Below, piece by piece: positions 431-61,428 of a stretch of 64,000 bases of DNA; the first letter of the stretch is position 1, and every line of letters begins with the position of its first letter. The stretch is taken from the NCBI GenBank assembly GCA_019096195.1, contig JAGTXK010000267.1, positions 62,001 through 126,000 of the forward strand. The letters run 5' to 3'. The notes beneath the pieces are model-generated. The model made no database searches. It saw nothing but the letters and a program-made list of their open reading frames with translations, and was not told the DNA's origin. This DNA is from Boletus sp. NGJ (taxonomy: Eukaryota; Basidiomycota; Agaricomycetes; Boletales; Boletaceae). The translations under genes and the position numbers were made by a program.

Positions 431-3400
431 TTACGACTCTCCCCCCACCACGGGCGTCGGAAGCACAACCTCGGTGCACGACCCAATAGCCCGTCTCCAT
501 AGCGCATTCATCTCCGTCATCGTAGCCCGGTCACCAACGACGATCAAGCCCAACTTGGCGCGCGTCCACATGACGTTCAACCGCCTCGGATCGTCCACGA
601 ACCCGATCTCGCGCGTCGCATTGCATCGCACGGTGGAGAACACGACCACGTCGCTCTCTCGTCCCTGGAAAGAGTCGATCGTCGCACAGGTGACCGAGGA
701 TGGGAGGGCGACTTTGAGAAGCGCGATTTGTTTCGCGTATGGGGAGAGCGCGGCGATGGTCAGTTTGGTTTCGGTCGTGGGCCGTGGGTCGTCCTCGGCG
801 CCGCGGTGGACGTCTTGGGCCGCCGAGTGGACGGCGGAAGGGGACTGGAGGAGAGAGATGATGCGTGCGGCGAGTTCGACTTGGCCTTCGTTGCCTTTGG
901 AAGCCGCGCCCGTCGTCTCTTCAGAATCACACTGAACGAACACGGTAGGCACGAGTCGTTGCTCTCTGCCCACCCTTGGCCACGGAAAGGCAGTGGCGGC
1001 TAATCGAGCGAGGACGGGTGCGCTGTCCTGGATGTAGGATCGGAGTTCTCCCTCGTAAAACTCTGTCGACGGGAAGTGAGCAAGCTCGCTCGGGAATCGG
1101 TATTGTACCTGGCGGTTTATATTGTCTTGTCGAGCGTACTCGAAATCAAATTGAAGCCACTCACGTTGAGCATGGTCTTTACAGTGCCTGGATGGGCGTT
1201 GGATGTATACAGTCTCTCCAGGAGAGAAACATCATACTCGAGCGCCTTTCCCATGGGTTTCACTGTGGGTCGTAGTTGCACACTAAACAAGGACGAGCGT
1301 CATCTCGTCGAAAATGAAACCGGTACGATACTACTCACTGGTCTCCAACCAACACTGCCCTTTGACACCCTTTGACGAGTGGGATGAGGGCGCAAGGTTC
1401 TGTGATCTGAGACGCCTCGTCGATCAAGACCGTATCGAACTCGATCTTGCGCAACGTTCCCAGTCCAGCACCCGCGCACGTCGTGTACACGATGCGCGCT
1501 GCGTTGACGCGTTGTTGAGCCTGTCGATGCAAGCGGTTGTTTTCATGCAGATCTCCGCCAACCCGCGCGTCGATCGTGTAGCTTTGGAGCGCTTTGTTGA
1601 CTTTAGAGTGGTCAGTGGCGACACGGAGGATGAGTTCGTCGGGGAGGAGCCGATGTTCTTTGTTTAACGCAAGGAAGCGCTCCAGGACGTTGTCAACGGC
1701 TAATCGAACGGCTACAGATCCGCTCTCTCTGACATCGGAGTCGTAAAGAACGTACCATTGTGGGTGGAGGCCGTCATGAGAATCTTACACTCCGGAAACT
1801 TGCGCAAGAGATAACGAAGTATCTGGACGACGACCGTCGTCTTTCCAGTTCCTGCACGCAACAGATGTCAGTGATCGATTCTGGCTCACGAGTGCAGCAA
1901 CGTGCCTGGTGGTCCCCAGATTAACGATAAAGGGGCCAAGCTAGATCTGATCGCGGTTATTTGGCTCGGGTTCATCGATTCCGTTCCAGTCAGCTCTTCT
2001 TCCTCCTGAGAATGGCCAGCGACGGCTTCCGACTCCGTTCGAGGTGGCATGACAATCGTGTCATAGATGCTACAACATTCGTAAGAGTCTTCCCACAACT
2101 TTGTCACTGCGTCCATCATCGCCTTTGACGTTGCTTATCAAAAGCCGGTGTCAGACCACCTTCGTCACGCAAACAGACCACAATGAGGACATACCGAGAC
2201 TCCCAGCATCGAATATCCTCCATTGCATCGCCGCAAACTCAGGTGGAAGCAGATGGAAAAGCTCAACCGTGATTTCTCCTCGAGCAGCCTTGGTCACCAC
2301 ACCATCCACAACAGCGCGGTCAACGAATGCATTATCGGGGTCTGACACACACTGTAGTCGAACGTGTGAGTGGAGCCGGATCGGCACAGATAAATCGACT
2401 CTGAAATGCACGTCGACGTGTCCCTCATCCGAGTCCTCAGCCTGAACGAGCCTCAAAACCGGGTAGGATGACTTTGCATTCCGAGGTCTCCCTGTATCGT
2501 CACAGGGACACACGTCTGCTGCCTCCTCTGCGCAGTCGAACGCAATGGCAAGCGTATGTTTGTGGAGGTAGGCTGTAGCAGGGGATCCCTCTCGGGATGC
2601 CAATGTCGATTCGTGCAGCACGAGGAGCGTCTCTTGCAAGAGCGTCTTTGGCCGGATGCTCAGCGCCGCGAGCATGAGCAAATCGACATACACGCTCGTT
2701 TCCATGTCGTTGATCGACTTTGCAATCTTTTCCAACGCGACAAGGGTGGCTACTCCCAATGTGTTCGCTGCGCGGAGGATGGCTCGGAGGATGGGCACCT
2801 TGAGATCCACCAGTTGTTCAGGGAGCAGCTGAGTCTCGGTCGGAGGGTATGCTTTCAATAACACGAAAACTAGGGGTGGGCTTTTGTGAAGACAGGTGCT
2901 GATCATGTCCACCATGAGTGGCTGCAGCGTGACGACAAAGTCGAAGGTCCAGTAGAGCTCGTTGTCTGCACGATGCTGGAGAGCAAAGGTCATCAGGGTC
3001 TGTAATTGCTCATGTTGGAGGTCAGTCACGAGCTGTTTGAACATCGTCTCCGAGACCCTGGGCACGAAAACTTCCTTGATCCATTCGGGGTGAGCCAACC
3101 AATCCACGTCCCGGATGGACTTGACACTGTATGAAGTCAACTCTCGGGCAAAACGACCGACGTACTCCTCGGTCTGCACGCTAAATATACATTCCATCAA
3201 TAAGTGTGTCAAAGGTACACACGTCTCACTACTCACTGCTCCAAATACATGTCAAATAATTGGTGGGCTACCCTGTCTCGATTGGAAATAACATGTATCT
3301 CGATCGAGGTCACTGGCGCCTTGTTCAATCGTCCTAGTTGCTACGAGAAGTTTTAGGACATTATGCGCGATTCAGCCCTAAGCGTCACATACCTGCCCAA

Positions 3401-6323
3401 CCCGTTTGGATATCTTTTGCAAGGCAATGCTTGTAATGACATCTTGACCGGTTTCGCGAGAGCGTGCGATGAAGATGAACGTATCGGCCTGATTCTTGTT
3501 GTAAAGTTGCAAATTGCCGTCACTGCAATGAAGCCTGTATCCGGCGGAGCAAGGACGGTAGACAGACATGGATTCAGTCGCTTTGGGCATGAATGAGCAC
3601 ACGACGACGTTTTCATCCACTTCTGGATCTTCGTCCCAGAGGGTCACTCCTTTAATGAAAATTCCGACTGCAAATCGGTCGTCTGTCTAACAAAATCAAA
3701 GTTGTTGACGATGGGTAGATGTTCACGCTCTAGAAAACGTACTTGGAGGATGAGCAACTTTCGCGTAAACTGCTCGAATGCTATCCGTAGATATTGGAAA
3801 AAAGTCGCGGTTGATTTCTCTTTTGAAGAGTACAGCCGCTGCATCGACAAGGGGCGATTGAGTTGACGCTGCTGAATGTCGCGTATCGAGAGAATATCGG
3901 ATGTCAAGAGAGAGTTCCACATTCGCCGGTGTTCAGTCGGAGAAAGCTCCAACGTAGTGCTGATAACGTGCTTTTCATGGGCAGCCAGGGCACCAAAGTC
4001 AAGGTGGGCTATGTAAGGCTTCAGCTCGTACAAATTGATGGAGAACTTTCGGGCGAAAGCGACTGCCATGTTGAATAACTCGTATTCGGAGACGGCTTTT
4101 GGTTTACTTTTGAAAAGCTGACCAAGGACGTCCTCTGCGTCTTCTGGGGGGGTCGTATCAGGGTCAAGATTGGTCGCGACTTGATCAGTGCCGGTGAAGC
4201 GAGTACGAAACGCTGCTGCAGCATCTGCGAGGACATCCAAAACAAATATGCCCTCCGCAGCTGGGGGCTTGCGCAACCTCTCTGGGGTTTTGACCCTCGC
4301 TCCGTCTACTGATTGCGAATGGAGTGCATTGAGCTCTTGGCATTCGGGGCTCATCGCACCCTTCGGGCTACACCGAATCCATTGCTGGTGTAGTTTGGTA
4401 ATTTGGGCGAGACCAACACTATTGCTCGATCGTCAGAGGATACTATACGGTAACATCACAACGAGGTCACTCACTTGTTGTACATGGCAAAGTGTGTGGC
4501 GAGATCTTGCCGCGTCACATTCCCACCTGGACGTTCCTTATTTGGCGGGTAGTCGTATGACTAGATGACATGTAATACATTTTATATTGCGTTCCTCATG
4601 CCAATCAGACAACTTGTACTCACCTCGTGAACCCGAGGAGGGACAATATCCGGGTCCCAGCATACGAAGAACTTGTCACCTGAGACGAACATTAACTTCG
4701 AGGCGCTGATGGATATCAAGCTGTGTGAACATACCGTCCAGGTCACCCCCGCTGCTCATTGCTGGCGCAGCCTGGTGTTTTGGTTTTGCAACAGAAGCGA
4801 AAACGATGCAGTCAACGAGATGTTCCAACTTAGGATGTGCAACGGCGCGGAGCTTTAGACAATCACCTGGAAAGCATTCAGGTAGATATTTCATGATAGA
4901 TTCGTGTAAGCATGCCTGGGTGAAGACACGGGTTCCTGACCACGAGAACATCGCCATTGATCGGCGTCGTGGCACCTTTTTGCGAAGTTATTCGAATATG
5001 GACTTGGCCCTCCTTGAGAACGGTGAAAGGATCACAAACGCCGAAGAGGAGACGTGATTTGTGGATGATCATTCTCGCCCTAGGTTTTTCGTTCTTCAAG
5101 AACTGCGATACTTCTGCCATCTGTGCTTTTCGGATTTGAGCACTGACGGTGCGATCATCCAGACCGTTCAGAAGGACGCGTTCTGCAAGGTCATATTGTT
5201 CAAGACAAGAGGCGAAATCGATCGCCTTTGTCACATCAGTGGATGCCTCCTCAATCCACCGAAAGTACGTGTCTTGTTTCGCCACCAGCTTTTCGTTGGT
5301 AACGCCGAGACTTGAGAGGAGAACGATGATGTCGTTGTTCAAGCGCCCAAAAGCATACGGTTTTGAATATCCTACGACGGAAAATGAATGATCTTGCATT
5401 GTCGTGAATTTCTTCATGCTCTTCCGAAACTTGGCAAGGTACTTTTTCTCCTTGTCCATCTCCGGATGCATCATAAGGACTCCCTTGTATCCCAAGTAAC
5501 TAGAAAGGGAAGGCTCAGATGTATATCTCCGTTTTGAGGAAAATGTATACCGAATTTGGAGGACACATGGGACATAACGTTGGTTGCGAAATATGATCCG
5601 TTTCGTCTTGCTGACTTGGATAGCCCAATGCTTTGTCATAAGTCCACAGCCATCAGAGAACATAGTGTCGGCATTCTCAATGTCATCAATGTCGGTTATC
5701 CATTTGGGATCCAACTGGATATCAAGCTCTGCAGCAGAGAACAGGAGACCAATACGTTTGGCCCCTAAATGTGGGTGGTCAAATATAATGGATTATCCGA
5801 GGCAACGAAAGGGTCACGTTTCGCCGCATTCATTATCCTTCCAAAATCGCCTAATGCATAGATCCTGTGATCGAGCTCGGCATCATTGTTTGCTTCGCGC
5901 ATGAAACATGTCCGGCTCCGCTGTCGAAACCATGAGGGATCTACAATGTCAAACAGGGAATTGTCTGCCACTCACTAGCTGACTGTTACTGTGGTGGTAA
6001 AATCGATACTGGACACCATTGATGAATACGCCAGCTTTCATCATTCGAGTGATATAGTCTGCAGTAGCTCGCAGACCACCATCCGGAAAACGCAGTTTCT
6101 CGAAAGAGACGAGAAGGAATTTCGCTGGATCATCGCTTCGGAGGATGCGGTTACTCGGAAACTGTGAAACTTCAAGAGTAATCGCATCCGCAGCGAACTT
6201 GATGAACTTTCCATAAATGTTTTTTTCGTTTCGCCTTCTTGGTAGGGCAAGATGGTTGTTTGGGACAGTGAACTTCCAAGACTCCTGATCTTGAGGGGGA
6301 TTTTGAAATATTGTGTATGGCAT
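431..6323 (-). CDS. RNA-dependent RNA polymerase fused to UPF1-like SF1 helicase
   Basis: Predicted 16-exon gene of 1,691 residues; the exon sum (5,076 nt) is a multiple of three and all phases agree. Exons, 5' to 3': 6323-5976, 5920-5818, 5764-5551, 5499-4916, 4866-4735, 4679-4624, 4560-4475, 4418-3743, 3686-3393, 3340-3237, 3180-2195, 2133-1906, 1851-1756, 1711-1339, 1282-1165, 1108-431. Residues about 40-550 form a cellular RdRP domain (RNA silencing type): SNSQLRSRTCF near 113, FSDGCG at 186-191 and the metal-binding DLDGD at 458-462. Residues about 700-1200 form a middle region typical of mushroom homologues. Residues about 1240-1691 are an SF1 helicase: GPPGTGKTT from 1268, DEAS at 1400-1403, VGDHVQLRPTV, NVQYRFPSEL, DSFQGRESD and NVMWTRAK. 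No stop or promoter-sized gap separates the halves. Expected role: making dsRNA from aberrant or repeat transcripts for RNAi. The N-terminus is short compared with QDE-1. All catalytic motifs look intact. Domain calls are strong; the single-transcript structure is inferred from splice sites. Confidence 0.85.
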
Positions 6324-6511
6324 GGAGGGCGGAAAGCTTGAGTCGTGGGGGAGGTGGCTGAGGTTCGATAGATAGACAGAGAAGTCGAGTTATTGAAACG
6401 GTTCTAGGCTGCCTAGGCCTGCACAGCGCATTTAGGAAGGCGCCAAGCAGTAAATGCAGGCTGCTGGCGTTCCCACCTGCCGAGATACACAACTCTACAC
6501 CACTCGCAGAG
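6324..6511. promoter_or_regulatory. Shared divergent promoter region
   Basis: Only 188 bases separate the start codon of the RdRp-helicase gene (minus, 6323) from that of the P-loop gene (plus, 6512), so one short region must serve both. No clear TATA box is seen; there is a pyrimidine-rich stretch (C/T on the minus strand) just upstream of the RdRp start. This is inferred from spacing alone. Confidence 0.45.
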
Positions 6512-7135
6512 ATGACCGACCACCAACACCCGCTCACTGAGTTGTACGTCGTCGGACCATCCTCTACTGGAAAGACGACGCTCTGTAATGCAGTTGCAGA
6601 GTCCCTGAAACTACGCTCGTGGTGCTACATCACCGAAGTCGCACGTCAAATCATGAAAAGGCGAGGTTTTACAAGGGCAGACGTGGGTAAAATAGAGATG
6701 CAGAGGGCGATCATGCTGGCACAACTGGATAGAGAGGCGGAAACTTGCGAGAGGGCAAGAAGCATGGGCGAGACCATGATTCTCAGCGATAGGTCTGGCG
6801 TAGACCCTATCGTATACGCGGTCCTGACAGCGAAAGACGAGCATCAGGCACTGCAGAGGAAGAAGATCTTGGTAAAACATCCCACCTTTCAAAACACGCT
6901 GAAACGATATCGAAAGGCCAAATTCCTACTCCTTGCACCGGTACCGGAATGGCTGGTCGATGATGGGGTGCGCAGCCTGGAGCACCATGCACGCTCTTTC
7001 CACGTCTATCGCGCGGTGCTTGCAGAGCTTGGGATCCCGTACCATGAGATTGGGGAAGAGGTGAAGGACTTGTCGGAGCGGGCGAATTGGGTCAAGGGAT
7101 GGGTAACGACGAATTCGGCTCGTTCTAACCTTTGA
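6512..7135 (+). CDS. AAA_28-type P-loop NTPase/kinase, NadR-like
   Basis: Intronless 207-residue protein. A textbook P-loop GPSSTGKTTL lies at residues 14-23. A second acidic motif, DRSGVDPIVYA, sits near residues 92-102 and fits the Walker B-like segment of the NadR/Ttd14-like AAA_28 family. The Arg-rich segment around residues 125-150 could be a lid. Such proteins bind ATP or GTP and may phosphorylate a small molecule; no substrate can be named from the sequence. No signal peptide or membrane segment is visible, so it is probably cytosolic. It is divergent from the RdRp-helicase gene, but this shared spacing is not evidence of shared function. Confidence 0.8.
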   Translation: MTDHQHPLTELYVVGPSSTGKTTLCNAVAESLKLRSWCYITEVARQIMKRRGFTRADVGKIEMQRAIMLAQLDREAETCERARSMGETMILSDRSGVDPIVYAVLTAKDEHQALQRKKILVKHPTFQNTLKRYRKAKFLLLAPVPEWLVDDGVRSLEHHARSFHVYRAVLAELGIPYHEIGEEVKDLSERANWVKGWVTTNSARSNL

Positions 7136-11300: not shown

Positions 11301-12235
11301 TATATGCTTGGCCAGATGTAGCTTGTACCCCACATTTGGTGTATAGCTTACTTAAGCTCAACACTCCCCCTCAAGCCTAATGTAGGCCGAGAATGAGAAT
11401 GAGTTGATGATGTCTGGCTCTTGGTAGAGCCTTTGTCAATATATCTGCTACCATTGTGTCTGTAGGACAATAGTCTAGTCTTATCCACCCTTCTCAGATT
11501 TTATCTCAGAGGTGTAGACTTTTGAGATCAAAATGTTTAGATCGCTTATGAAATTGGGCATTAGTGCCTATCGCAAGTGCAGATTTATTGTCTCCATATA
11601 ATAATGTAGATTCACATGGCATGAACCCAAGTTCTATATATAGATTGCATAGCCATATTACCTCTTGTCCTGCATCAGCCATTGACATGAATTCAGCTTT
11701 GGCAGTCAACAAGGTTGGTGCGTTTCCCTTTTTGGAATGCCATGTGATGGCATCTCCACTTAGGATGAAGACGTTACCATTTATGAAACTAAGGTCGGGG
11801 TTACTTGCAAAGCTCACATCTGCATAACTGTGGAACCCACTGATTTTTGTGTTTTGTGCATATGTGAGACTCAGATCTTTGGTTTCTTTTAGATACCATA
11901 GTACTCTCTTTGCTGCAGTCCAATGCTCCATATCTGGATTGCTATTGAACAAGCACAGCTTATTTACTACATATGCTATATCAGGACAAGTACTGATTGC
12001 AGCATACATCAAAAATCTGGTTAACAACGTATAATTCCCATTTTGGGTATGTGTATCATTTATTTCCGCTCATGATTGCAACTTCACATTTGGATTGAGT
12101 GGTGTAGATACTGGGTTCACATCCTGTATATTGTACTTTTTGAGTAGTTCCTTAATATACTTTGTCTGTCTTATGCAGATCATTCCTTTTGCTCGATCTC
12201 ATGTGATTTTGAGTCCAACAAGTTTATTCAACTTG

Positions 12236-15200
12236 GGAACTAATAAGAGTTCTGCGCCCTCATTCCCTCACATCCCATTTGTGTGAACTCAGTCCTAATC
12301 GTGGGAATCATCTTATCCTATTCGTATCTACTGCTACTACTACAGGTTATGAGCCCTGCGCTCTAGGCCTATCTGAACCCTTCACTTATCCTACCATATG
12401 TGGCAAGACATGTTGCGCTGCCATGCCCAATCGGGCCAGTCCCCTGACCATGCCATGGGCTATGCAAGGTCCATCATCTACGTCACAACCACAGCCACCC
12501 ACTACCAATGCGGCATCTGCTGCAAATGCCACCACTTCCAATTCTGGAAATCAGTCGAGTACCAGGTCGATTACCTCCGTCCCTACTCAAAGTCCTATGG
12601 TAGCTAGTGGAGGCGATAGCAATCAGTTCAACTCATCTTTGACCTTTCCAAAGATTGAGAAGCTTTCCAACGACAACTATAAGTTGTGGAAACGCTGGAT
12701 AGCGATCATCCTCCAAAAGAAGGATGTGTGGGAAGTTGCAACTGGCGAAGTTCCCACACCCACGGATCCTGCCGTGCTCAAAGATTGGAAGTGCAAGGAT
12801 ATACACGGTCAGGAAGTCATTACGACTACTATTAAAAATGACCAGATGAACAATCTTACTGATTGTTCTACTTCTGCTGAGATGTGGAAGGTGTTGAGGG
12901 ACATACATGAACCTCAAGGATATGAATCCGTTAGACAGAGGAGGCACGAGTACTATACTCAGTTAGCCAATGAAGATATGGATTTGCCGACGCATCTCAA
13001 CACTTTATGTGAATTACACAAGCTGTTAGCTGATGTCAGACATCCAATTGAGAAGAAAGATTTCAAATATTCAATGATCTGCTTGCTTCCCAATTGCTGG
13101 AGCTCGTTCATCAGTTTCTATCTAGGTGCTAGGAGTGGCTCTAGGGATAATGAGTGACTCGCATTCATAATGGTCAACAACCTTGTCTCCATGATCCATG
13201 AGGAGGACTGCCACCATTTCCAAGCAAATAGATCGGATGACATTGTCTACACTTCCAAAAACAGCAAGCCACATAAATGTGCTATATGCAGATGCAACAA
13301 CCATGTCACCGCCAATTGCCACTTCAAGGGGAAGCCCAAATGCAGTATATGTGACAGATTTGGTCACAAAGGTGCCAAGTGTTGGAAGAATCCTGCCAAT
13401 AAGGGCAAGGGAAAGGCAACTAATGGGCAGGACAAAAAGAAGTCCATCCCAAAGGGAAAAGAGTGTGCTAAGATTGTCAATAAGGATGAGAGCAAAGATA
13501 GTGATAGCAAACTTGGGAAAAGTTTCAATGCTCATGTAACCATAGATAACAATGCAAGCAAGGCTGATGAGGTCGAATTTTCTACTTATTCGTGGATCGC
13601 GGACTCTAGTGCTATGACACACATATGCGCTCAATGAAAGCATTTGTTGACTATCAGACATTAATGGCTAAGACAGTTACTGGATTGGATAACAAGCCAG
13701 TTACCATATATGGTAAAGGCACCATCATTCTCATTACATGAATCAAGAAACAACTCATTCAAACTAATTAAATAATGTACTACATATACCTGATACACAA
13801 GAAAATCTACTGTCACTTGGGCGAATTGATGCCAAGGGTGGACGATCAGTGTGTGCACGAGGAACATTAGAAATCTATGATGACAAGGAAACAACTAATT
13901 ATAGTTGGTCATCTAAAAAGGAAGCTATACTATCTTGATATAGTAAGTGACACATGCGATGCCATACATGTGGCAATAAAGATTAAGAATGCATATATCT
14001 GAACTGAGTGGCATCGTCATCTCAGACACATAGGTATTAGTGGATTGAGAAAACTACATGGTAAAAATCTAGTCAATGGACTATCTATCAGTGAGAGTCT
14101 GCAAGATTTCAATTGCACTGTGTGCATCCAATTCAAGATCACACGATAGCCAATGCCCAAAACAGGAAGCCAGCGGGAATCCTTATCAGGTGAATTAATT
14201 CACACAGATATGTGGAGACTGGCACAAATCCCATCACTCAAGGGGTATAGGTACTACGTATCATTTATTGACAATGTGACATGATATATTACAATCTTGT
14301 TCATGACAACTAAGGATGAGACTGCTAGCAAGGTAAAACAATATTTAAATTATCTTGAATGACACAAGCAGGTACTACCAAAGGTGATACGTGCTGATAA
14401 TGGACATGAATACATCAACCATGACCTAATCACATGGTGTCTTGATAAGGGAATCGAGGTACAAACAACCACATCTTACATGCCAGAGCAGAATGGCATG
14501 GTGGAATGATGGAATAGAACCATTGTAGAGTTAGGACATGCCATACTTTCTGGCCAAAATATGCCACAGAAGCTCTGGTCTGAAGCAATGAGACATGCAA
14601 CATATATTAGGAATCACACGTTTATCCGATCAGTACCTGATATGATGCCCTACCAAAAATGGCATGGTAGCCAACCAGATATTTCCCACATTCAGGAATT
14701 CAGTTGGAAGGTGTGGATTCTTGACGAATCACTCAATTTATCTAAGTTAGCACCCCATGTCAAAGAATACAATTTTGTAGAACATAAGGATGGCCCAAAG
14801 AGCATCAAATACTATGATGCAGAACATTGCATACTGAAGGTCACATGGAATTATAGATTCCTGATGACAAATCTTCCCATGCCAGTGATGGACCCATGGT
14901 CCAAGGGAGAGGATATCAAGTGTAAACATGTAGATAACAAGGCATTACAAAATGCTAATAAGAAATAGAAATTAGATGACTCAGTAATGAAATCATTGTC
15001 AGAAAATCCAGGCGATCACACAGATGAGTCTAGGATTACTATGGCAGAAACTATCTACATGGCATTCAGTGAAATGGCACTTGGGAATAAAGACCCAAAG
15101 AATCTAGCCAAAGTCAAATGATCATCTGAATGGCCAAAATGGGAAAAGGCCATTAAGACAGAGTTGGAAACATTACATAAGATGGATACCTGGGAATTAA

Positions 15201-23695: not shown

Positions 23696-30347
<6,652 letters not shown>

Positions 30348-59331: not shown

Positions 59332-61428
59332 TCATCCACTGGCATCTGTAATCTCAACCCTCGGCCGCTTCGTGGTTCGATCTTCCAGCTCCTCAGTGTC
59401 ATCCTCTACATTCCCATCTTCCTGCCCTTCCCCTTCAGCTTTTCCATCTAGATCCCTATGCCTCTGACTCGTCTCACCGACCCCCACATAACACCCCAAC
59501 GCACTACACCACACGTACCCCCTCCCCAACACCCTCGTCAACACGTCGTACGCACCAACGTTGGCAAATGGGACGTTTGTCCTCGGATCGCGATACTTGC
59601 CGGGTTGGCCGGTGATGAGACATGTACGAACCGGGCGGGCTAATGTCAAATGACGGCCAAGGTCAAGTGAGCAGTGGAAGGGGAGTCGTTAGCTTAGCAC
59701 CAGTACAGACACGCACAGACGAGGAAAGAAACATATATATTATATGCATAGAACGAAAGCCGAAAACTCACCCAATGGCCGCCCCTTGCCCGTAAATACC
59801 TTCACCTCATCCCACTGTACATGATCCCCAAACATGGCAGACATGGTGTCTTTCCATGTGGGGTTGGAGGAAACGGATTGAGAGAGTTCATGGATAACGT
59901 AGTTCTTGCAGACGTCTTCAGTGCGATGGGCGATGAGGGGTGCGGTGGGGACGGGTGGATAGGTGAGGAGGACTGGCAAGGGTTGGGGTTGCGCTGAGGG
60001 TTGGGGTTGCGCTGAGGGTTGGGGTTGCGCTTGAGCTGGAAGTTGTGTCCGTGGTTGCTGCTGCCATGGTAGTGCTGACGGGACGGAGGTGACGGCGCGT
60101 GCAGCGGAATCCTGGATGCTCGAGGAAGAGGCGGGTAACGGGAGTGGTGCGGAGGGTGATATAAGCGACGTCGGAGCCATCGATGGGCCTGCAGAGGACA
60201 CCTGTGGATTCCCGCTCGAATACGAGGAGGCTGTCGCTTGTACGGACGCAGACGCCTCTTGCGGTTTTGACGCCGCGCTCTGAGCCGTGAATGGCGTATA
60301 CGCATAAAACGGCATACTATATGCCTGACTCCCTACCGTACCCGCCCCTACACCAGGTGTGTACACAAAACTGTACCTGGCTGCATTCAAATTGGCACTC
60401 ATCGTTGTCGTCGTTGGGGGAGGAGGTGGCGGCGGAACTTGGACTTCCACCTGGATAGTTTCCTTCTTGCTGACCCATCGCAGAACGGGGCCTTCGATGG
60501 CTTGCTTTACTACGCGCGCCTTGGCGCGTTTCTCTTCTTCGAGACGGAGGTAGTCTCTGTGTTCTGTAATGTTTCCCTCTTCAGTGTCGAGTGCCCGTGC
60601 GATCAGTTCGTCTTGTGTCGGTAATCGAGTGGCCATCTTTGTCTTCTTTGGAATCGCAGCCTGTATGCGACGTCCCATGAGCGAGACGCAGACGCCAGCG
60701 TACGAGAAACTACTACGCACCCGCTTCTCCTCGGCATCCTTGATACGATTGACAGTCGCCGAGGTGTTCAGGATCGTATATCGCCTCTGACTGTGCCTCT
60801 TGACGCCCACCGTCCCCGCACCCCCCTCGATGACTTCTCCCGTTTCCGCATTCACGGCGACACCGAGGGAAACGCGGCGTTTGGGTTTGGGTGTTAGCTT
60901 TGATTTCAATTGCGAAGATGTCCCTTCGGGGTTGAATGTCACTCGCTGGCGTGCGTGGGCTGCTGCGGTGGCTTTTTCTACGCGCGCACGCGCGGTCTAA
61001 GCGGAAAAAGAGAGTGAACGAGACCATGTATTACTCGAAGCAACAAAAGGATGGAAAGGCGGTACGCACCTTGCGCACCATTCGTTCCTCCTCCTTTGCC
61101 GTTCTATCACCCTCATCGACGTCCTCTTGCGCCGCCTCTTCGTCCGTGCTCGCGAAATCTGATTCAAAGACGTCCTCCTCCTCTATCCAGTGGCATAATT
61201 TAAACTTACAGAGATTTGGCGTGGATAGGAAAAACGTACCCTTGTCGACGATAAAATCGATATCTTCCTCGGGGTCTTGTGGATCCTCGAATGTGAGCTC
61301 GGCCAAGGCCACCTCCATCCTAGGGATGATCGGACAACTGACAATGATAGAAAGCTCAGCAAGACACACCGATTCCCGGCTGTACTCCGCTTCGGCCTGC
61401 GTGAAACAAGACACTCTTCCTCTGCCAT
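59332..61428 (-). CDS. SWC2: SWR1 chromatin-remodelling subunit, YL1/VPS72 family
   Basis: Minus strand, ATG 61428 (MAEEECLVSRRPKRSTAGNR); intron 1 ends just before the ATG GAG codons at 61318, giving GNR-MEVALAEL. Next come an acidic region (DPQDPEEDIDFIVDKG, then EEDVFESDFASTDEE), the basic YL1 region (RARVEKATAAAHARQRVTF; KPKRRVSLGV), a Pro/Ala/Gln-rich low-complexity stretch (60480-59930) and the C-terminal YL1_C domain (ITGQPGKYRDPRTNVPFAN, 59600-59540), reached by an intron of about 130 nt. Swc2 binds H2A.Z-H2B and helps SWR1 exchange H2A.Z into nucleosomes near promoters. The order acid, basic, YL1_C matches the family. The low-complexity insert contains near-exact short repeats around 59990-60040. 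Confidence 0.9.

Follow-up and report, generated by a model that had tools for sequence, protein, structure and literature searches.

The window analysed here, the whole stretch of 64,000 nucleotides (nt) from contig JAGTXK010000267.1 of the bolete Boletus sp. NGJ (assembly GCA_019096195.1, positions 62,001 to 126,000 of the forward strand), carries on its minus strand a gene whose predicted product joins a cellular RNA-dependent RNA polymerase (RdRP) to a superfamily 1 (SF1) helicase. In our model, which was assembled manually from the sequence and the stop-to-stop frames in it, the gene (431..6323, minus strand) extends from an ATG at 6323 to a stop at 431 and comprises 15 exons separated by 14 introns of 49-63 nt, encoding 1,704 amino acids (aa) in a single frame. 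The exons span 6323-5976, 5920-5818, 5764-4916, 4866-4735 and 4679-4624 (exons 1-5), 4560-4475, 4418-3743, 3686-3393, 3340-3237 and 3180-2195 (exons 6-10), and 2133-1906, 1851-1756, 1699-1339, 1282-1165 and 1108-431 (exons 11-15). The first-pass annotation of this DNA had predicted 16 exons and 1,691 residues, likewise in one frame; the single frame stands, whereas its counts depart from ours by 39 nt, or 13 residues, and either exon number may be correct.

Gene structure and continuity of the reading frame

Non-coding stretches within the gene are at most 63 nt long, and the frame is held across introns 8-10, that is, through the region where the two halves meet. Exon 10 (2195..3180, minus strand, aa 883-1211), which joins the halves, is 986 nt long and was open in its own frame in none of 3,000 first-order Markov samples; an open stretch of that length in any of the six frames was found in a single sample out of 3,000. 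Codon log-odds trained on ten of the 15 exons favoured the predicted frame over the other five in each of the held-out exons (2, 8, 9, 10 and 11), although its lead was small in exons 2, 9 and 11, and among all 15 exons only the 18 codons of exon 5 scored better in another, reverse frame. Since there is one reading frame throughout, one protein is the likely product, in which RdRP and helicase would be fused. All motifs named beforehand for the two catalytic centres (DLDGD; GPPGTGKTT, DEAS, VGDHVQLRP, QYR and WTRAK) proved intact in this product. Rfam returned no match at the gathering score.

Twelve of the 14 introns have GT-AG borders, the remaining two (introns 3 and 11) GC-AG. Intron 3 (4867..4915, minus strand) lies within NPCLHPGD, a conserved block ahead of the catalytic aspartates, and intron 11 (1852..1905, minus strand) within the Walker A sequence GPPGTGKT. 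Either intron, if retained, would introduce an in-frame stop, and the removal of both restores GPPGTGKT as well as NPCLHPGD, the latter in the form that the plant-type RdRP has in the alignment. Retention of intron 11 would give an RdRP lacking the helicase core, and the two GC-AG introns might act as a splicing switch.

The polymerase half

The RdRP domain (PF05183) is encoded at 4295..6158 on the minus strand and covers aa 56-566, corresponding to profile positions 15-532 of 582 (E 1.7e-101). The catalytic motif DLDGD (aa 475-479; 4675..4744, minus strand) is split by intron 4 and aligns with the DLDGD of a plant RdRP, so that the product combines PF05183 with DxDGD, by which we recognise a cellular RdRP. 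Compared with solved structures, the RdRP part matched an 'RNA-dependent RNA polymerase' chain, 7w84 (7e-45), which we take to be a plant protein, and 'RNA-dependent RNA polymerase 2', 7eu0 (5e-40), whereas its match to QDE-1 was far weaker (5e-14), which sets it apart from proteins with QDE-1 as their best match. By this comparison the half is nearer to plant RDR2 than to QDE-1. Residue 91 of the fusion aligns with residue 451 of chain 7w84 at the start of the alignment, and therefore a long N-terminal region is absent from the fusion, a difference from plant RDR2, otherwise the best match of this half.

A search of the genome (32.8 Mb in 141 contigs, hereafter C with a number) with PF05183 gave 14 exon matches, 12 of them over the cut-off and located at four places, namely C81, C77 (the fusion gene), C22 and C14; two weak matches fell on C7 and C73. 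Of the other RdRPs, two open frames of C81 and one of C14 were compared with the structures, C22 being left out; the C14 exon matched QDE-1 only, and weakly (7e-6).

The connecting segment

The region that connects the RdRP match to the helicase matches (1976..4294, minus strand) amounts to aa 567-1264. Queried against the genome at E up to 1, aa 750-1263 hit no locus but their own. A low-confidence single-sequence structural model of exon 10, with a mean predicted local distance difference test (pLDDT) score of 47, consists of about 12 helices followed by strands, which could correspond to a barrel of the UPF1 1B type.

The helicase half

The 1A side of the helicase (1258..1975, minus strand, aa ~1265-1448) contains GPPGTGKTT, DEAS and VGDHVQLRP and is matched by AAA_11 in two stretches, the best at aa 1380-1448 (E 1.3e-42); matches to AAA_30, UvrD-helicase and ResIII overlap with AAA_11 and begin at aa 1265. 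The 2A side (527..1236, minus strand, aa 1456-1673) corresponds to AAA_12 (PF13087, E 1.2e-39) and carries QYR, FQGRE and WTRAK. The best match of this half was NAM7/UPF1, with 162-166 bits (~1e-47), followed by 8ftm and its kin, entitled '5'-3' RNA helicase-like protein' and presumably senataxin-like (9e-39), SMUBP-2 (2e-35) and SEN1 (1e-34), and by the weaker DNA2 (1e-27), ZNFX1 (1e-24, 90 bits) and Aquarius-type factors (2e-22). ZNFX1 thus came sixth among the named helicase kinds and is not the kind to which the core is closest, in agreement with the earlier impression that the motifs resemble UPF1/IGHMBP2-like enzymes rather than Hrr1. Among the helicase loci of the genome itself, the pieces of the UPF1 locus likewise scored highest against the fused helicase half. 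The fusion nevertheless differs from UPF1, its closest sequence match, with regards to the zinc-binding domain (PF09416), which was not matched in the fusion up to E 10 but is present at the UPF1 locus on C22. The ZNFX1 domain PF25396 was not matched in the fusion either, although this profile matched nowhere in the genome and so says nothing on its absence.

A helicase tree was built on the AAA_12 part, in which the fusion was set beside ten pieces of the genome and one piece of yeast NAM7; several rows lack an end, and C129b is about half complete. It supported only the union of three helicase genes on contig C94 (1.00 and 100) and that of UPF1 with NAM7 (1.00 in FastTree, 76 in IQ-TREE) and left the fusion unplaced. 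A weak grouping of the fusion with the C94 genes received 53% in IQ-TREE and, with C129 included, 0.61 in FastTree.

Other helicases and silencing genes of the genome

A separate UPF1 with its zinc domain is located on C22. On C94, at ~40-70 kb, three closely related helicase genes (L033, L034 and L035) lie within ~30 kb, and L034, the one searched, best matched ZNFX1 (1.3e-39 vs 1.2e-19 for UPF1), so that ZNFX1-like helicases have probably expanded at this place. These genes are ZNFX1-like by their core alone, because the ZNFX1 profile matched nowhere in the genome and the NF-X1 zinc finger gave a single match, on C101, and none in the C94 genes. Since the genome thus possesses a UPF1 as well as a ZNFX1-like helicase apart from the fusion, the helicase half of the latter probably does not correspond to Hrr1 or SAD-3, and by these sequence comparisons the likeness to Hrr1 is probably a false lead.

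The genome-wide AAA_12 search gave at least 21 matches, none of them near the other three RdRPs among the matches listed. With the fusion as query, tblastn likewise showed none in the 10-kb loci of these three RdRPs; this is a weak test and the poorer of the two, as it also missed the RdRPs at L030 and L031. An RNA-silencing apparatus is present, since both Argonaute and Dicer-like matches were found: Piwi gave 15 exon matches (14 over the cut-off) on C122, C40, C124, C10 and C22, and RNase III gave eight, paired at three places (once on C22, twice on C109).

The fused architecture in Fusarium

The same order of domains has been described, in 2015 and 2024, for FgRdRP5 of Fusarium graminearum (FGSG_09076), an RdRP with C-terminal DEAD-like and AAA (PF13087) domains. 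According to the accessible text of Zeng et al. 2024 (PMC11237814), its DEXDc domain occupies residues 1277-1478 and its AAA domain (PF13087) 1475-1677; in our gene model PF05183 is likewise followed in one product by helicase domains including PF13087, at ~1265-1448 and 1456-1673, with ends 4-30 residues apart and the first domain delimited by different models. Moreover, the RdRP of FgRdRP5 is reported to be nearer to plant RdRPs, and it is placed near Arabidopsis RdRp2 and RdRp6 in the part available of a 2016 study (PMC4870495), which also lists it as a predicted target of viral small interfering RNAs (siRNAs); a 2019 table (PMC6764512, in the excerpt available), unlike this plant-like placement, files it under SAD1 with antiviral roles. 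FgRdRP5 is an ascomycete protein, to which the bolete gene is likened by architecture and description and not by a sequence alignment.

Further portions of Zeng et al. 2024 (PMC11237814) report that FgRdRP5 branches apart from the three RdRPs of N. crassa, that the gene is induced in sexual stages, that ascospore discharge of the mutant falls to 47.6% of the wild type, and that its deletion lowers 21-25-nt small RNAs with 5'U by ~32% together with exonic siRNAs. Because of this separate branch, N. crassa, the main model fungus, may lack the class altogether. A figure legend in PMC11130915 lists RdRP, DEAD and AAA domains among the RNA interference proteins of F. fujikuroi. Hence, the question left by the first-pass annotation of whether the architecture is already catalogued can be answered: it is in F. 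graminearum and, by that legend, probably in F. fujikuroi. In the portions of the literature searched, RdRP-SF1 helicase fusions were encountered in Fusarium only, and a basidiomycete member may still be in print. The architecture is therefore not new, and the gene appears to be a further member of a family that has received little study. As judged from the correspondence with FgRdRP5, which is the best evidence for it, the architecture appears to be real and old, although a convergent origin of the fusions here and in Fusarium may also account for the likeness.

Comparison with other polymerase-helicase pairs

Hrr1 of S. pombe acts in a complex with the RdRP Rdp1. We take Hrr1, SAD-3 of N. 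crassa and RnhA of Mucor to be related to ZNFX1, the fused half being nearer to UPF1. RdRPs of Dictyostelium and oomycetes carry a helicase in the same protein, there a Dicer-type SF2 helicase on the N-terminal side and here an SF1 helicase on the C-terminal side. In the excerpts available, Hrr1, SAD-3 and RnhA are described as RNA helicases serving RdRP-based silencing and encoded by genes of their own (999-1,231 aa), and SAD-3 is said to share a complex with the RdRP SAD-1. The available parts of Lax 2020 and of the Mucor and funRNA texts, where section 7 of the latter deals with accessory domains of Dicer, report no RdRP-SF1 helicase fusion, and neither does an Antrodia excerpt, which does not deal with RdRPs.

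Weighing the alternatives

Several observations weigh against a fused silencing polymerase of the FgRdRP5 kind. The model needs two GC-AG introns among 14, and G+C content at third codon positions (GC3) steps from 467 of 882 codons (0.53) in aa 1-882 to 539 of 822 (0.66) in aa 883-1704 (Fisher p 1.3e-7), a step that the presence of two genes or a more recent fusion could explain; by domain, GC3 is 0.52 in the RdRP vs 0.67 in the helicase. The C81 RdRP exon also prefers RDR chains, less strongly (7.6e-19 vs 3.5e-15 for QDE-1), and therefore the lean towards RDR2 is not diagnostic for the fusion; in the AAA_12 tree, the helicase finds no place and leans weakly away from UPF1. For the RdRPs of S. 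vaninii (807-1,198 aa), P. cornucopiae, C. militaris, V. nonalfalfae and C. parasitica the portions of the surveys available report no helicase, and so the fused class is either not universal or was missed there. Viral and prokaryote collections, which by design hold no fungi, gave 2 and 4 stretches with the peptide pattern but no relative, one of the searches having used 501 of the 1,704 residues. Moreover, orthology to FgRdRP5, which we infer, draws on architecture, on positions set by different domain models and on reported affinity, and the accessible text of PMC4870495 states that hairpin-induced silencing may not depend critically on FgRdRp5.

The GC3 step would fit two adjacent genes, the first of which, an RdRP, would end at ~3300-3200 and the second, an SF1 helicase, would begin at a methionine in exons 9-11, with an overlap or a tiny spacer between them, and in-frame methionines do occur at aa 879, 929, 946, 972 and 975, with seven more up to 1265. 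This is nonetheless quite improbable, as no non-coding space exceeds 63 nt, the frame is intact across introns 8-10, and Fusarium is reported to have the same fused order; of four poly(A)-like hexamers, none is seen in sense orientation at 3500-1900, a weak argument, given that they are likewise missing from the true 3' flank (430-1). Relatives whose two halves are without exception separate genes would, according to the first-pass annotation, speak against one protein; F. graminearum, with its fused protein, is a counter-example. That the helicase half is instead an orthologue of Hrr1, SAD-3 or ZNFX1 joined to its polymerase partner, and the whole a fused equivalent of Rdp1-Hrr1, would agree with the silencing roles reported for Hrr1 and SAD-3 in the excerpts available and with the weak leaning of the fusion towards the C94 genes, themselves ZNFX1-like by core only, but we regard it as very unlikely given the 162-166 bits for NAM7/UPF1 against 90 for ZNFX1, the preference of L034 for ZNFX1, and the full support with which the three C94 genes group without the fusion. 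It is also unlikely, if somewhat less so, that the gene no longer serves mainly RNA silencing, having turned, for example, to RNA surveillance or ribosomal RNA (rRNA) processing by way of its helicase half. The accessible parts of PMC11237814 raise rRNA processing and nonsense-mediated decay for Fgrdrp5 and report altered ribosome-biogenesis genes in the mutant, and the doubt about hairpin-induced silencing points the same way; the motifs of both catalytic centres are intact, however, and the loss of about a third of the 5'U small RNAs upon deletion of Fgrdrp5 argues for silencing.

A proposed model of template feeding

We therefore consider it probable that the gene encodes one protein of FgRdRP5 architecture, in which a cellular RdRP nearer to RDR2 and a complete UPF1-like SF1 helicase cooperate in feeding templates into siRNA production. 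The UPF1-like motor would move along an aberrant RNA at the expense of ATP, clearing it of proteins or structure, and the helicase half would hand the single-stranded template to the polymerase half, whose double-stranded RNA (dsRNA) would pass to Dicer and be cut into siRNAs. We infer a single transcript and protein, both enzymatic activities and a coupling between unwinding and dsRNA synthesis, while the link of the fusion to siRNAs would hold by analogy with the Fusarium mutant. A fixed 1:1 ratio of polymerase to helicase follows if the protein is left uncleaved.

Should the fusion be kept in distant fungi, the pairing would be functional and not the accident of one genome, and it would offer a single protein for testing whether helicase movement supplies template to a silencing polymerase. 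More tentatively, Fusarium and this fungus may possess an overlooked class of silencing polymerase that carries its own UPF1-derived motor, an idea we put forward as a possibility rather than an expectation. Such a class would represent a second, independent way, besides Rdp1-Hrr1, of bringing an SF1 helicase and an RdRP together, and it could tie the recognition of aberrant mRNA directly to dsRNA synthesis within one protein.

Neighbouring features and further observations

Upstream, a head-to-head neighbour with an AAA_28 domain (6362-7135, plus strand, E 7.5e-22) has its first ATG at 6512, about 190 bases from that of the RdRP, which therefore leaves little room for separate promoters or for an N-terminal extension of the RdRP. 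A retrotransposon piece with a Copia-type gag domain (12213-13157, plus strand, E 8e-19) lies ~6 kb from the fusion gene. Farther away, the window contains a large open frame (24225-27719, minus strand) whose product has RNA polymerase domains 3-7 of the Rpb1 type and repeats at its C-terminus, and a YL1 nuclear protein domain (59740-60996, minus strand, E 3.3e-21).

Elsewhere in the genome, two adjacent divergent SF1 helicase genes (L039, on C129 at ~323-327 kb) form a long branch of their own in the AAA_12 tree, and a search for the kind of one helicase piece from C129 and one from C38 assigned neither to a named kind. The paired RNase III genes on C109 (53090-54145, plus strand, and 69371-70426, minus strand) face each other ~15 kb apart and are probably duplicated Dicer-like genes.

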